Virus record (IMG/VR): IMGVR_UViG_3300027822_000006
Location: 1-40,892 of that record
Direction: 5' to 3' (one strand)
From: a virus
Length of the DNA stretch: 40,892 nt
Position numbers and translations under genes: made by a program. The notes beneath the pieces are model-generated. The model searched no databases, was not told the DNA's origin, and saw only the letters and a program-made list of their open reading frames with translations. This document shows, piece after piece, positions 10,988 to 27,447 of the stretch (the stretch's first letter is position 1; every line of letters begins with the position of its first letter).

Positions 10988-11280
10988 AATCATTTCATTT
11001 TTATAAAATATTTTTAATTTGGGTTTACGTCATAAATGTATGGGATATGGAGATTTGTATGGGTATATCAGAAATGTATTGTGGTATGGCCCGTATATAA
11101 GGTTCCCTACATACCCACGATACCTATACCCCACCCCTCCAGAGATTTATTGACCTAATTAGAAGCCCTGTGATACGCCTAACTGTTTGAATCTATACCA
11201 ACAGTAGGGGTCTTGTTAGATCGTGCCTGTAATGAGCTTAGAATAGGACTGAGGCTTCTCAATTGGATTATTATTCTTGG
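10988..11280. other. Intergenic region downstream of putative terS
   Basis: No supportable gene. The part 10990-11110 is AT-rich with repeated TATGG/GTATGGG words. The part 11161-11257 can fold: GAAGCC at 11161 with GGCTTC near 11252 encloses CCTAACTGTT paired with AACAGTAGG (one bulge). Transcribed leftward with the late genes if at all. Confidence 0.45.
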
Positions 11281-11655
11281 CTACTTGGTTACTCTCTCGT
11301 CCTTTATCTCTGTGTATTCTGCTTCAACTACCTGATTATCAAGACGTTTCTGACGTGCACGACTAGCAATGATGTCAGCCAGCTCGTCGTCTGTGTACTG
11401 TACAGCGCTTCTTGAGGCGCCTGACTCTATTGTTATGTCCTTGGGTAACAGTGGCGCTACAGCCTTTAGAGTAGCTAAGAAGTCATTTTCGAAAGACTCT
11501 GCCATCTTTTCCTGGAATGCCACGATGCCTACTGTCTTGCCATTCTTCATTTTATTTATAGCTAAATCAATACCTTTGCGTATTTTTACGATTGCATTAC
11601 GGTCAGCAGAATTAAGTCCACCTGGGTTTCCTGATTGTCCTTTTACGAATGGCAT
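11281..11655 (-). CDS. Putative small terminase subunit (DUF5681-like N-terminus)
   Basis: 124 residues. It begins MPFVKGQSGNPGG, the KGQSGNPGG motif seen at the start of several phage packaging-region proteins, then a helical segment to residue 70 and a charged C-terminus (VVEAEYTEIKDERVTK). It precedes terL on the same strand, though 1.4 kb away with several small genes between. A small-terminase role is plausible but not proven. Confidence 0.5.
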   Translation of the reverse strand: MPFVKGQSGNPGGLNSADRNAIVKIRKGIDLAINKMKNGKTVGIVAFQEKMAESFENDFLATLKAVAPLLPKDITIESGASRSAVQYTDDELADIIASRARQKRLDNQVVEAEYTEIKDERVTK

Positions 11656-11703
11656 TGTTATTAACCTATAGATAATTGATATGTAAGATATTTAACTTAA
11701 TGG

Positions 11704-12039
11704 TTAAATGTAGTAACCATAGTCATATACTGGGTAGTTTGGGTCTTTTGTTAGTATGCATATGTTTGATACATGTACATTATTTCCCGCGGTGGCTTTT
11801 AGCTGTATTACTGATGATCCTGTTTGCTGTGTTGATACTGTCATTGTATGTACGCTGGCGGCTAGTGATTCGTTGGCTACTGTCGCGGATCCTGATTTTA
11901 CTGTTACCGTTACTACTGTTACTGACCCATTTGAGTCTACCCAGGGGGTGTAGTCTGTTGTTACCAGCTCTACTTGGTCTTCAAATGAGACCATCCGCCT
12001 GATTTGTTGCTGTCTGTTGTGAGTTACTGTGTATTCCAT
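11704..12039 (-). CDS. Beta-rich protein, first gene of the late block
   Basis: 111 residues: MEYTVTHNRQQQIRRMV, then a Thr/Val/Ser-rich beta domain (SVTVVTVTVKSGSATV) ending DPNYPVYDYGYYI. This looks like a small Ig- or jelly-roll-type virion protein. GAGAAATAA precedes the ATG. The opposite-strand ORF here is Leu-repetitive and is an artefact of the Thr/Val/Ser codons. Confidence 0.55.
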   Translation of the reverse strand: MEYTVTHNRQQQIRRMVSFEDQVELVTTDYTPWVDSNGSVTVVTVTVKSGSATVANESLAASVHTMTVSTQQTGSSVIQLKATAGNNVHVSNICILTKDPNYPVYDYGYYI

Positions 12040-13434: not shown

Positions 13435-13564
13435 ACAGGATTATGCCCTATATGCTGCTAAACACGTTAAACAATGGGGAATTTTCGCGGCTTCTCGATA
13501 TGCCAAGAACCGTGGCGTATCTGCCGAAACATTAATCAAAGCAATAAAAAGGAAAATACAATGA
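13424..13564 (+). CDS. Small basic protein coupled to beta-barrel gene
   Basis: 46 residues, MITKQDYALYAAKHVKQWGI, C-terminus SAETLIKAIKRKIQ. Helical and basic; may be a small HTH-like protein. The stop TGA overlaps the next ATG (ATGA), so the two are translationally coupled. Confidence 0.5.
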   Translation: MITKQDYALYAAKHVKQWGIFAASRYAKNRGVSAETLIKAIKRKIQ

Positions 13565-13944
13565 AAACAACAATATTTTTGCTTCTTCTTTCTTCCAGTG
13601 TCCAGGCTGATTGGACTGTACACACAGTGTCAGATCATCTTAAAACTACTGGGCTTAACAATATTAACCCTGGTATTGCTTACGATTTTACGCCTAATTT
13701 CAGGGCAGGAGGGTTATACAATTCTTATCATAGGCCTTCGTTTTATGCGGTTGGTTTGGCTCACGTTAACTCTAGGCTGCGTCTTGGAGCAGGTGTTATT
13801 AGTGGATACAAGCTACACGGTAAAGACGTTGGCAAAGGCTCAGACACCTCTATTATTCCGTTAATTGCTGTTGAATACGACCTTACTAAACATGTATCTA
13901 TTGCGTGGTTTGGTGAAGTACTTAATCTTGAACTTAAATTCTGA
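13561..13944 (+). CDS. Secreted beta-barrel outer-membrane-like protein
   Basis: 127 residues. ATG 13561 is chosen because MKTTIFLLLLSSSVQA is a clear Sec signal peptide with cleavage after VQA; an upstream start would bury it. The mature part alternates polar and hydrophobic residues with aromatic girdle-type residues (NINPGIAYDFTPNFRAGGLY, SFYAVGLAHVNSRLRLGAG) and ends in Phe (LNLELKF), as outer-membrane barrels do. Possible roles are host-surface modification or superinfection exclusion, comparable in logic to Lom-type proteins. The enzyme PagP is also a small barrel, but I see no catalytic residues to claim it. Confidence 0.65.
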   Translation: MKTTIFLLLLSSSVQADWTVHTVSDHLKTTGLNNINPGIAYDFTPNFRAGGLYNSYHRPSFYAVGLAHVNSRLRLGAGVISGYKLHGKDVGKGSDTSIIPLIAVEYDLTKHVSIAWFGEVLNLELKF

Positions 13945-14337: not shown

Positions 14338-15048
14338 ATGATCGCTTATAAATTAATGAATCAAGATTTCACAACCCATAAAGGGTTTAAATGGGAAATA
14401 GGGAAAAAAGAAACCATTGATATTCGCGGCAATGAACTTTGTTCTGACCAGGTATTTCATGCCTATAAATCACCAGAACTGGCTGTTATCTTTAACCCTA
14501 TCCACGCCGAATATAAGAATCCGTTACTTGTTAAAATTGAGTGCGACATCGTTGCTGACGATGGACTGAAAATAGGGAGTAAATGGCAAACACCTTTAGA
14601 GCTAGTAACTTTGCCTAATATCACACAGCGGGAAAAAATAGTTTTTGCAATTTTATGCGCTAAATCCGTCAGCCATTTACTGCTTAATCCAATCGAGGCA
14701 TGGGATAAATGGTCAAATGATTATCTAAACAATAAAGTAATATCAAAAGAAGATTGTGCTTCTTATATTTATTATGTTTGTGATAATAATCATCGTTCTT
14801 ATGCTGCTGCTGTTCGTGCTGCTCGTGCTGCTGTTCGTGCTGCTGATACTGTTCGTGCTATTCGTGCTGCTGATGCTGCTGCTCGTGCTGCTGATGCTGC
14901 TTATACTGCTCGTACTGCTGTTCGTGCTGCTCGTGCTGCTGTTAGTGCTGCTGATGCTATTCGTGCTGCTCGTGCTGCTCGTGCTGCTTATACTGCTGAT
15001 AAAACAAATTTTATCGAAATATACAATGATGTATCCAACTATATCTAA
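14338..15048 (+). CDS. DUF7666-like protein with long Arg-Ala-Ala repeat tail
   Basis: 236 residues; GGAGG lies just before the ATG. Residues 1-110 resemble the DUF7666 phage domain (MIAYKLMNQDFTTHKGFKWE ... QVFHAYKSPELAVIFNP). Residues 156-221 are an irregular repeat of R-A-A, A-A-D and A-A-Y triplets encoded by GCTGCT and CGTGCT runs (14803-15003), likely one long helix or coiled coil. Such a tail evolves quickly by slippage. Function unknown; a toxin-like or sensor role is conjecture. Confidence 0.75.
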   Translation: MIAYKLMNQDFTTHKGFKWEIGKKETIDIRGNELCSDQVFHAYKSPELAVIFNPIHAEYKNPLLVKIECDIVADDGLKIGSKWQTPLELVTLPNITQREKIVFAILCAKSVSHLLLNPIEAWDKWSNDYLNNKVISKEDCASYIYYVCDNNHRSYAAAVRAARAAVRAADTVRAIRAADAAARAADAAYTARTAVRAARAAVSAADAIRAARAARAAYTADKTNFIEIYNDVSNYI

Positions 15049-15251: not shown

Positions 15252-15314
15252 TTTTTACCCGGAACCCAAACTTTAGTCACAGGAGAAGTATTTTAATGGG
15301 TCCGGGAGTAAAAA
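15252..15314. terminator. Long hairpin between converging transcripts
   Basis: 15252-15267 pairs with 15298-15314: TTTTTA, CCCGGA and CCC with GGG, TCCGGG and TAAAAA, 15 pairs interrupted by 1- and 2-base bulges. There is no U tract after the stem on either strand, so it may be a barrier or part of the adjacent RNA. It separates the plus-strand gene ending at 15251 from the leftward RNA. Confidence 0.45.
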
Positions 15315-16432
15315 TTACCGCTCAAGCTTACAAGCAAGGCTTTTCGATACCTACACTTTTGATAGAGGCTTGAGCGGTTTTAAAAGGTCCACCGTAGAGC
15401 AACTGGCTATGCTAGCCCGGATTACCCTACGGTGGAGTCTTGGCCTCTCACCAACGTGGCTTTTGTCTCTGGAAGCTATTCCGCCCTCGGTTGTTACCGC
15501 TGATAGCTCGACCGAGGTAACGACTATCAGGGTTAAGGTCCACCGTATTACAGAGATATTTTAGCCCCGGACGATTACTCTCCGGTCATTACCTGCTGCG
15601 CGTTTTATCTCAACGGTGGATATTTTATATTAACCATAGGTTTCTCACGCTAGGCGTACTATGTAACGGGACTCAGTACGCAATATAAAAACTTGTTACC
15701 ACATATGCTGTGAATTAAATATTATCCTCTGTCCCAATCCAGCTATTTCCACATAGCCTTCTTAGAACAGTGGAGACAGGTGCCTTTCTGCTCTCTCCCT
15801 AGGGTTGGAGGCCCTAGCTGCTCCGCCCCGGATCAGGGCCTTTCTCTTTGGTTGTTAGTTCCCCGTATACCATCGGGGTCAGGTTTGATGTTAATGGATT
15901 AATCCTACCTATTATGTTATCCCATCAATGCGATGACAAATCGCAGCTAGTTTACCGGGGAACATAATAACATCATACCCGTTTATATACCGCCGGGCTT
16001 GACGGTCAAGGCTGTCTACGGATTTTAACCGTTTTGACATTTAACCATTGGTACCTCAATTGGCGCGCTTTACCGCCGCCTCCACCCTACAAACTACTGA
16101 GGCAGGGACTCAAAGCGAAGCTTTACCTTCGCAACCCACCCGACCGCGTATCCGCAATCCTTAGGGTATTTGATGTTGGCTTGATATCGTTGGCCTATCA
16201 AGTGCCGTCACAGTTCGCTATACCATCTTTTAAAGCGGTCACCAACCTGCATTGTTCCTAAAATGGCGTCCTGTGAGCTATTCCGCAACTTCCGCCACAA
16301 CATCAAACTCTGTACTACTTTACGATTGTTTCGTAAAGTTGAATAAAACGCCGTACTTCTGAGACTTAATCGTACAATTGGCTGTAAACGATCTCACCGG
16401 CTAACAATTTCCCAGGCAGGAATGGAAATTCT
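15308..16432 (-). ncRNA. Candidate giant structured non-coding RNA, about 1.1 kb
   Basis: No gene fits here, GC content rises to about 45 percent, and complementary blocks are dense. Main helices (plus coordinates): 16406-16412/16424-16430; 16317-16325/16331-16339; 16180-16186/16196-16202; 16115-16120/16127-16132; 15929-15934/15940-15945; 15858-15865/15956-15963; 15623-15631/15682-15690 enclosing 15654-15660/15675-15681; 15539-15546/15613-15620; 15388-15403/15421-15436 (16 bp, three G-U pairs only on the minus strand); 15317-15327/15368-15378. Pseudoknots are possible at 15485-15530 and 15742-15774. Strand is set by a near-consensus promoter at 16439-16467; some helices extend better on the plus strand, so direction is not certain. 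The best-known classes of such RNAs in phages are GOLLD and ROOL; I cannot match either from memory. Ends are estimates. Confidence 0.65.
15310..15378 (-). terminator. Probable 3' terminator of the giant RNA
   Basis: Perfect 11-bp stem ACCGCTCAAGC/GCTTGAGCGGT (15368-15378 with 15317-15327) followed on the minus strand by AATTTTTA. The 40-base loop is long for an intrinsic terminator but holds an inner AAGC/GCTT hairpin. Confidence 0.45.
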
Positions 16433-16438
16433 AATGAA

Positions 16439-16467
16439 AATATAGCTCTATATAACGTTTTTGTCAA
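16439..16467 (-). promoter_or_regulatory. Near-consensus sigma70 promoter for the giant RNA
   Basis: On the minus strand: TTGACA (16467-16462), 17-base spacer, TATATT (16444-16439). Expected start is A at 16432, and a 7-bp hairpin (16430-16424 with 16412-16406) begins two bases later. The -35 box overlaps the TGA stop of gene 16464-17024, the same layout as a lambda pR' promoter directly after gene Q. Confidence 0.75.
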
Positions 16468-17024
16468 ACTTTATATCCATTTTCCCGCAATGCTTTTTTG
16501 GCTGCTGCCCTCGCCCTTTTTAACTTATTTCTGGCAACGCTTCCTGACCATCCCCAATTTATCTGAAAATCCCTTATTTCCCATAAGTTTTCATATTTCT
16601 GTATTAGAATATTATAATAATGACTATTAATGGATGATAGTATTATATTTATTTTTGAATATCTCTTGTCACCGTTATACAAAGGATTTGATGGTTTGGC
16701 TGACAAAGTCTCTTTTGGGAATTTTAACTCATAAATTCCATACTTCCATATCTTATAAAAAAATTCCACCCAATAATTAAGATTCTTTTTCCCATATCCA
16801 ATTTCTATTAAATTTTCACGTATTGTCGCTTTTCTCTTTTTGTCTATATGATCTGTTAACTCTGTTTCAAGGCAATTGAAACCCTCTAGGGGTGACTTTC
16901 TTTTAGAGCTAAGCCCATCGACACCCTTTTGCCGATAGAGCCCCCACGGCTCTAATATTCGCTCTAATTTGTCGTCAGGCTTCTTCCCTCTGTTTAAATG
17001 TGTTGAAGGTTCTCTAGTCTCCAT
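16464..17024 (-). CDS. Last gene of early leftward block, unknown
   Basis: 186 residues from ATG 17024, chosen for the AAGGG 8 bases upstream; earlier in-frame ATGs lack RBSs. Basic throughout. Aromatic centre (LNYWVEFFYKIWKYGIYELK) and a C-terminus WGWSGSVARNKLKRARAAAK ending ENGYKV that looks nucleic-acid binding. Its position at the end of the early block and immediately before a strong promoter resembles late activators such as Q, but no family motif supports that. Positional inference only. Confidence 0.6.
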   Translation of the reverse strand: METREPSTHLNRGKKPDDKLERILEPWGLYRQKGVDGLSSKRKSPLEGFNCLETELTDHIDKKRKATIRENLIEIGYGKKNLNYWVEFFYKIWKYGIYELKFPKETLSAKPSNPLYNGDKRYSKINIILSSINSHYYNILIQKYENLWEIRDFQINWGWSGSVARNKLKRARAAAKKALRENGYKV

Positions 17025-17361
17025 AATAAACCCTTTTTTCTTCATGGTCTTTTGGCTCAACAGGCCGCGTTAATGCTTCTCTCAAAGTTAGGCCGGATCC
17101 TAATCTCGTATATACCGTACTCAAGTTTCTATCAAATTCTTCGGATAGGTCTTTTAAAGTATAAAATCTAGGAATCTTGCTTATATTTTTGCGCGCCTTC
17201 ATTCCAAATGATCTGCCTTTGTCAAACTGATATTTCATTGCCCTCTGTGCAAGAACTCTTAGTTTATAAGTCATTCCTGCATGAGTGATTATTTTCCCAT
17301 GATTATCATTAATAAATGCCCTTATCATTTTATTTAATTCTTTCATAGATTCGTCTTTCAT
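17014..17361 (-). CDS. Basic protein with C-terminal HTH-like segment
   Basis: 115 residues; GGAGGAGCC before the ATG. N-terminal helical basic half, then FYTLKDLSEEFDRNLSTVYTRLGSGLTLREAL (residues 65-96), a helix-turn-helix of the type used to read DNA. Overlaps the next gene by 11 bp and the previous by 4 bp. Confidence 0.6.
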   Translation of the reverse strand: MKDESMKELNKMIRAFINDNHGKIITHAGMTYKLRVLAQRAMKYQFDKGRSFGMKARKNISKIPRFYTLKDLSEEFDRNLSTVYTRLGSGLTLREALTRPVEPKDHEEKRVYYGD

Positions 17362-26562: not shown

Positions 26563-26606
26563 TACAAAACCCAGTATTTATCTGTAATTTGTATTGTGTT
26601 CATAAT

Positions 26607-26774
26607 TTACTCATCCTCCAGTTCGTTCTCTTTTATCTCAAAAACAAGCCTTGTTGCCTCTCGCTCATACTGAGTTAAATAATATTTAACTCGCTTCAAA
26701 TATTCCTCTGCTACTTCGAGTTGATCTAAAGTCTCACAAGACTCTATAACCTTACATACTTTATATATTAGCAT
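26607..26774 (-). CDS. Small helical protein
   Basis: 55 residues from ATG 26774 (GGGAAG upstream): MLIYKVCKVIESCETLDQLE ... FEIKENELEDE. Two helices, no motif. Confidence 0.5.
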   Translation of the reverse strand: MLIYKVCKVIESCETLDQLEVAEEYLKRVKYYLTQYEREATRLVFEIKENELEDE

Positions 26775-26995
26775 TGAACTTCCCACTCTAACCAGCAATC
26801 ACTTTGTGTAACACAGTACCGAACAGCAACAATTTCTATTGTCTTAAATGTCGCTGAATAATTTATATTATCTTCCTGTATTGGTTGTAAAGCCTTCACT
26901 GGACGGATAGGTAATCTAATAACCTCTTCAGCATATTCTGGAATATGCCTAATATTCTTTAAAGTATATATTAGATTATTAACATTTAGTCTCAT
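26768..26995 (-). CDS. Small protein, unknown
   Basis: 75 residues MRLNVNNLIYTLKNIRHIPE, then beta-rich KTIEIVAVRYCVTQSDCWLE. Overlaps the next gene by 7 bp. No family. Confidence 0.5.
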   Translation of the reverse strand: MRLNVNNLIYTLKNIRHIPEYAEEVIRLPIRPVKALQPIQEDNINYSATFKTIEIVAVRYCVTQSDCWLEWEVQC

Positions 26996-27053
26996 TCTGT
27001 TCTCCTAAGGGTTTATGCGTATTTTCTAGTGAGAATTGCTTCTTCCACTCATC

Positions 27054-27266
27054 CTACATTCTTTTCTCATATTTTCTCCATCTATTTTCTGCTATTGATA
27101 TTGCAGCTTTTAATAGATCTAATTGGTCCCATGTCAGGACCGCGGCCTCTATCTCTATATCACAACCTTTATACCCTTTAACATTCCTCACTATTATTGG
27201 TTGATCATAAAGATCATTATCTTCGGTATCCATATATTCTTCTGTTTCTGTTTTTACGTACTTCAT
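27054..27266 (-). CDS. Small protein, unknown
   Basis: 70 residues MKYVKTETEEYMDTEDNDLY, then VLTWDQLDLLKAAISIAENR. It begins inside the 3' end of the next gene upstream (50-bp overlap), with GGAGAAAA before the ATG. Confidence 0.5.
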   Translation of the reverse strand: MKYVKTETEEYMDTEDNDLYDQPIIVRNVKGYKGCDIEIEAAVLTWDQLDLLKAAISIAENRWRKYEKRM

Positions 27267-27447
27267 TTTTCTCTCCTTTTATCTTTTCTTTTTCTTGCTC
27301 CTGTAGATAACTAACTATTTCGTTAATTTTATTAATGGCAATAGCAACGTTATGTGCCGTTGCTATAAACAGAGCTTTGTTGTTTGTATGGACAGGCTTC
27401 CCATCTAAGCCGTATCCAAGCATGTCTTCAAACTCTATCTCTTTCAT
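27217..27447 (-). CDS. Small protein with basic tail
   Basis: 76 residues; ATHNVAIAINKINEIVSYLQ then a Lys/Arg run EKNEVRKNRNRRIYGYRR. Start overlaps the previous stop by 4 bp. The basic tail is exactly where it overlaps the next gene. Confidence 0.5.
   Translation of the reverse strand: MKEIEFEDMLGYGLDGKPVHTNNKALFIATAHNVAIAINKINEIVSYLQEQEKEKIKGEKNEVRKNRNRRIYGYRR

Follow-up and report, generated by a model that had tools for sequence, protein, structure and literature searches.

GOLLD and ROOL are large ornate phage RNAs for which we know of no function; GOLLD is a homo-oligomeric nanocage and is often found near tRNA islands. Among phage leaders, the lambda pR' leader (6S RNA, Q, tR') is approximately 200 nt long, and the put RNA of HK022 is far smaller than the RNA described here. 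During phage lysis, GOLLD is expressed at higher levels (PMC12286853). For Q to engage, the initial transcribed region must contain a -10-like sequence that brings about a sigma-dependent pause (PMC6606751), and HK022 put RNA, which works in early operons, binds RNA polymerase and so suppresses its pausing and termination (PMC9378689).

We analyzed a 40.9-kb IMG/VR virus record (the window, meaning the whole stretch of 40,892 nucleotides), in which a terminase, a portal, and a capsid were recognizable among the encoded proteins, and identified a predicted structured RNA of approximately 1.18 kb at 15254-16432 on the minus strand, with a predicted start at about 16432 and conservation to at least 15258. 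Like GOLLD, it is a structured phage RNA of very large size in which one part is conserved and another varies, and like ROOL, it is a large ornate RNA of phages; unlike either, it has no covariance-model match and no tRNAs or tRNA island nearby (ARAGORN found no tRNA genes in the window), and it differs further from GOLLD in its late-leader position. Its likeness to the lambda pR' leader lies in the putative Q-like gene immediately upstream, a sigma-70 promoter with a 17-nt spacer, a -10-like element in the initial transcribed region, and a place ahead of the late genes, whereas the leader here is 0.5-1.2 kb long with conserved helices and loops, and the Q-like protein has no PF06530 match. 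We consider it fairly probable that a Q-type late transcript begins with this RNA as its giant structured 5' leader.

The nearest relative of the window terminase is that of CBW1004C-Prop1 (52%), followed by those of Pan3, Pam1, and Mwe-JY13. Because these last 3 are phages of Pseudanabaena and Microcystis, the host is probably, although unproven, cyanobacterial. An Erf-like annealing protein, a RuvC-type resolvase, and a YbcO-type protein suggest a lambda/P22-like layout, with early-right genes on the minus strand from approximately 28 to 16.4 kb, the last encoding a 186-198-aa protein at 16464-17060, and structural genes farther on along the same strand. After the RNA lies a plus-strand cassette of approximately 3 kb that reaches about 12.1 kb.

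The first-pass annotation had described more than 1.1 kb without any gene, a local GC rise, and over a dozen perfect helices of 5-16 bp, and most of this held. The sense frames of the 1.1-kb stretch contain 24-28 stops each, with a longest open run of 69 codons and no plausible ORF, and the longest listed ORFs within it are antisense (64 and 75 aa). GC content is 0.46-0.50 against mostly 0.29-0.43 in the flanking DNA. We counted 17 Watson-Crick helices of at least 7 bp with arms within 120 nt, compared with 5.8 +/- 2.2 in dinucleotide shuffles, and 9 of at least 8 bp, compared with 1.1. The longest perfect helix is 11 bp, so the earlier figure of 16 bp must have counted G-U pairs or stacking across interruptions. 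Of the internal repeats, D1, D2, D4, and D5 are each near the chance expectation for 1.2 kb by our own estimate and are not counted as proof; D3 (CCACCGUA hairpins) looks like a real duplication.

Sequence searches, among them blastn of the whole window RNA against phages, found nothing, and exact pattern scans were therefore chosen; a search with the homologous RNA described below against phages and plasmids also found nothing. Scanning the whole collection with the pattern TGAGNNACCNATGGTTAA gave about as many matches as the chance estimate, one of which, in an IMG/VR phage of 41,559 bases (L096), was colinear with the RNA. The 2 sequences align in 3 colinear blocks: 94 nt at 91% identity (E=5e-29 in the pooled loci), 39 nt at 97%, and one more. 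The L096 RNA is approximately 0.5 kb, compared with approximately 1.2 kb in the window, and occupies the same genomic place, directly after a Q-like gene whose product is 52% identical between the phages. The 2 genomes also have in common part of the early region and some opposite-strand genes; no relative of the window terminase is encoded by the L096 phage. Since an otherwise different virus carries a 0.5-kb version at the same place, the 2 RNAs seem, as far as sequence comparison can tell, to belong to a new family of large RNAs found in phages, with 2 known members.

Among the other patterns, CTGACNNNNATGGTATANNNNGAACTA matched L096 only, TGAGTCCCGTTACATA matched L096 plus 2 chance loci, and CATTAAAANACTN{6,18}TGACTAAA matched L096 and 23 loci without RNA similarity. 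The sole match of GCGGAATAGCTN{5,35}GTTGGTGA lay in a coding region and was rejected as chance, as was a 19-mer of the P7 stem found inside the portal ORF of L003/L004. No RNA copy was detectable in the terminase neighbors L002-L014 or in CBW1004C-Prop1, Pan3, and Mwe-JY13, and a covariance model built from the window and L096 copies of the P5 block found those 2 sequences and nothing else among 51 sources. Prokaryote genomes were scanned with protein queries only.

From its 5' end, the RNA contains hairpin P1 (16350-16401, minus strand, as are all elements of the RNA; GCCGG UGAGAU / GUCUCA ... ACGGC), which in the hand alignment with L096 keeps 2 double changes and breaks 1 pair. P2 (15883-16308) is a long-range helix between GUUUGAUGUU (16308-16299) and AACAUCAAAC (15892-15883), with 406 nt between its arms; it encloses a window-specific domain of approximately 400 nt, and in L096 it closes a short hairpin only. 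P3 (15861-15878), a CCCCG-AUGGUAUA-CGGGG hairpin, is identical in L096 and lies within the 39-nt block of 97% identity. The most conserved block (91% over 94 nt) is that of P5 (15623-15690), a helix with an inner hairpin at 15681-15654 and the loop GAGUCCCGUUACAU, in which we identified one U-A/G-C compensatory pair relative to L096. P6 (15539-15620; UCCACCGU/ACGGUGGA) is present in L096, and a second P6-like hairpin (15388-15436; UCCACCGUAG/CUACGGUGGA) is a window-specific copy. P7 (15310-15378) is a terminator-like 11-bp stem (arms 15378/15317) with a 40-nt loop followed by U5 at 15314-15310; at its place, L096 has a sequence-unrelated helix, GCCGGG/CCCGGC, and then UUCCCUUUU. The 3' hairpin, P8 (15258-15306), has a conserved loop (AUUAAAAyACU..UGACUAAA), a conserved single-base bulge, 2 compensatory pairs, one G-U exchange, and no broken pair relative to L096. 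The best explanation for the approximately 400-nt P2 domain and the second P6-like hairpin is that both are lineage-specific additions in the window phage, a pattern suggesting that expansion within a single helix can make such an RNA more than twice as long in one relative as in another.

Across 10 hand-aligned helices, a set chosen with the structure in view, all 6 double changes stay canonical and 4 of 64 pairs are broken. In a neutral test, which projected the L096 centroid through an alignment made from sequence alone, 6 of 9 double changes were kept, 26 of 108 pairs were broken, and the sense strand did hardly better than the antisense. Covariation is thus suggestive of an RNA structure but does not prove it, and the modest support follows from there being only 2 known members.

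The promoter TTGACA-17-TATATT (16439-16467, minus strand) is exactly as first read and has the highest score among 11 promoter-like sites over the 2.2 kb scanned. Its -35 element shares bases with the stop codon of the Q-like gene, likewise in L096, where the counterpart is TTGAAA-17-TATTCT; the 17-nt spacers are alike at approximately 7 of 17 positions in a by-eye comparison. The -10-like hexamer TAGAAT (16428-16433, minus strand), a candidate sigma-dependent pause element in the initial transcribed region, is identical in L096 and lies exactly 5 nt after the -10 in both phages. By direct sequence comparison, lambda pR' has TTGACT-17-TAAATT and then AACGAT 6 nt after the -10, so that both the window and L096 have the lambda-type -10-like element in the initial transcribed region. 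The 7-bp hairpin said to begin 2 bases after the start is present from about 16430, and no counterpart was seen in L096. The folding statistics, the homologue, and some compensatory changes support the earlier reading of the stretch as a giant structured RNA that the phage makes from a promoter of its own.

The gene upstream of the promoter (16464-17060, minus strand; homologous start ATG 17024, 186 aa) encodes a protein 52% identical over 186 aa to that of L096 1047-1607, which has a sub-threshold sigma-70 region 4 match at its end (PF08281, E=7e-4). In the related prophage CBW1004C-Prop1, the early-right genes are followed by a gene annotated as Q that PF06530 matches, and this Q shows weak sigma-family matches resembling those of the L096 protein. 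By position and domain, we read the protein upstream of the RNA as a putative Q-like late regulator; we do not claim Q family membership because PF06530 matches nothing in the window and direct profile comparison with known Q is weak. The AlphaFold model of the protein is poor (pLDDT 49), scans of the genome collection with the Q-like protein and the terminase found no relative, and we know of no binding site for this Q-like protein family.

At the 3' end, the first-pass annotation had placed the terminus near 15308, after the 11-bp stem and U5. Both of these are real, but P8, with its compensatory changes, lies beyond them (15306-15258), and we therefore moved the end to approximately 15254. 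With its 40-nt loop, P7 would be a poor intrinsic terminator, and it was not called in a terminator scan. In L096, the ATG of a late-side ORF lies within about 10 bases after P8 and same-strand ORFs follow. Since P8 is conserved beyond P7 and this ATG follows it in L096, transcription must pass P7. In the window, the ORF after P8 has been lost, with a stop after 5 codons; late genes on the RNA strand lie immediately downstream in L096 and past the approximately 3-kb opposite-strand cassette in the window. Just upstream of the packaging genes, at 12150-12122 (minus strand), lies a promoter-like TTAACA-17-CATAAT that could serve them as a separate promoter, which weakens the case for the leader as the driver of every late gene in the window phage.

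The late leader of lambda pR' type, which the first-pass annotation had offered as its alternative, is thus the better supported reading, given the Q-like gene, the conserved promoter and -10-like element, and the ORFs downstream in L096. The promoter-TAGAAT spacing kept in both phages matches the arrangement described for Q engagement (PMC6606751). RNA polymerase would pause at the -10-like element as at lambda pR', the Q-like protein would load at the paused polymerase, and transcription would then enter the leader, which would fold while being made. The preferred mechanism, and the most likely one, is that the leader acts in cis, either on antitermination, aiding the polymerase past the weak terminator P7 and the opposite-strand cassette toward the packaging and head genes, or on the first downstream gene, whose translation P8 may control. 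HK022 put, likewise a structured nascent phage leader, serves as a model for such action by description, not by sequence, and belongs, unlike the RNA described here, to early operons (PMC9378689). Because its position can be interpreted, as the leader of a lambda-like late promoter beside a co-conserved regulator, the window RNA offers a testable hypothesis of a giant RNA working with an antitermination system. More tentatively, a new class of giant structured RNAs might be integral to the Q-type late switch, with a leader of up to 1.2 kb binding Q-modified polymerase or forming a particle, so that late control would need an RNA machine as well as a protein.

The main rival, which we regard as rather unlikely, is a stand-alone RNA that acts in trans in the manner of GOLLD or ROOL; it would be transcribed from the late promoter in lytic growth, be terminated or processed near P7/P8, and accumulate as a folded, perhaps oligomeric particle. 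Size class, phage location, the many helices, and a conserved core with a variable large domain would all suit such an RNA, as would the rise of GOLLD expression during lysis (PMC12286853) and, in the window, a terminator-like stem with U5 followed by convergent genes. However, the RNA of L096 enters a same-strand ORF within about 10 bases of P8, the loop of P7 is 40 nt and P8 lies beyond it, no tRNAs accompany the RNA in the window, and no Rfam model matched. At the gathering threshold there was no match at all, and at E values up to 10 the window and L096 gave only isolated matches scoring far under the gathering scores, which leaves GOLLD, ROOL, OLE, HEARO, and group I/II introns unsupported. 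The first-pass annotation had pointed to the GOLLD, ROOL, HEARO, and OLE models as the check on its assignment to the size class of GOLLD and ROOL, and none of them matched either sequence.

That the stretch is a structured DNA element, such as a packaging, recombination, or replication site, instead of an RNA is improbable. Inverted repeats are abundant, and folding beyond chance is seen for the plus strand too (whole-region MFE z of -3.5, 20 shuffles per strand); the predicted RNA strand nevertheless folds better in both phages (-5.0 vs -3.5 in the window and -3.4 vs -2.1 in L096), the promoter and start-proximal element are conserved along with the RNA, and a common packaging site is unlikely because the L096 phage lacks any relative of the window terminase. 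It is very improbable that the stretch is a decayed protein gene or one of the known ribozymes or introns: the size would be compatible with a group I or II intron, but Rfam gave no match at E up to 10 in either sequence, every frame holds many stops, the most conserved block falls at RNA hairpins in no frame common to both phages, and the 70-aa antisense frame of L096 over that block has in-frame stops in its window counterpart.

Further observations concern other genes. The gene at 14338-15048 (plus strand) encodes a DUF7666-type protein whose N-terminal part is 80% identical to an L096 phage gene and whose long C-terminal region is of low complexity, with gctgctcgtgctgct repeats in the DNA, and the gene at 13474-13944 (plus strand), in the opposite-strand cassette after the RNA, weakly matches a PHROG whose annotation is PagP-like lipid A modification/host takeover. 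The stretch at 26563-27443 (minus strand) is without ORFs of at least 80 aa, and its minus strand folds better than shuffles (z = -4.2); it contains several shorter ORFs and may be coding. Large-terminase genes of relatives are split by approximately 800 bp after residue ~200 (L003 9199-10001; L014 10594-11384), at a site identical in L003/L004 and L014, whereas that of the window has no interruption. In L004, the head-closure gene is split by approximately 830 bp (11203-12032), and these interruptions in L003, L004, and L014 are candidate introns or inteins.
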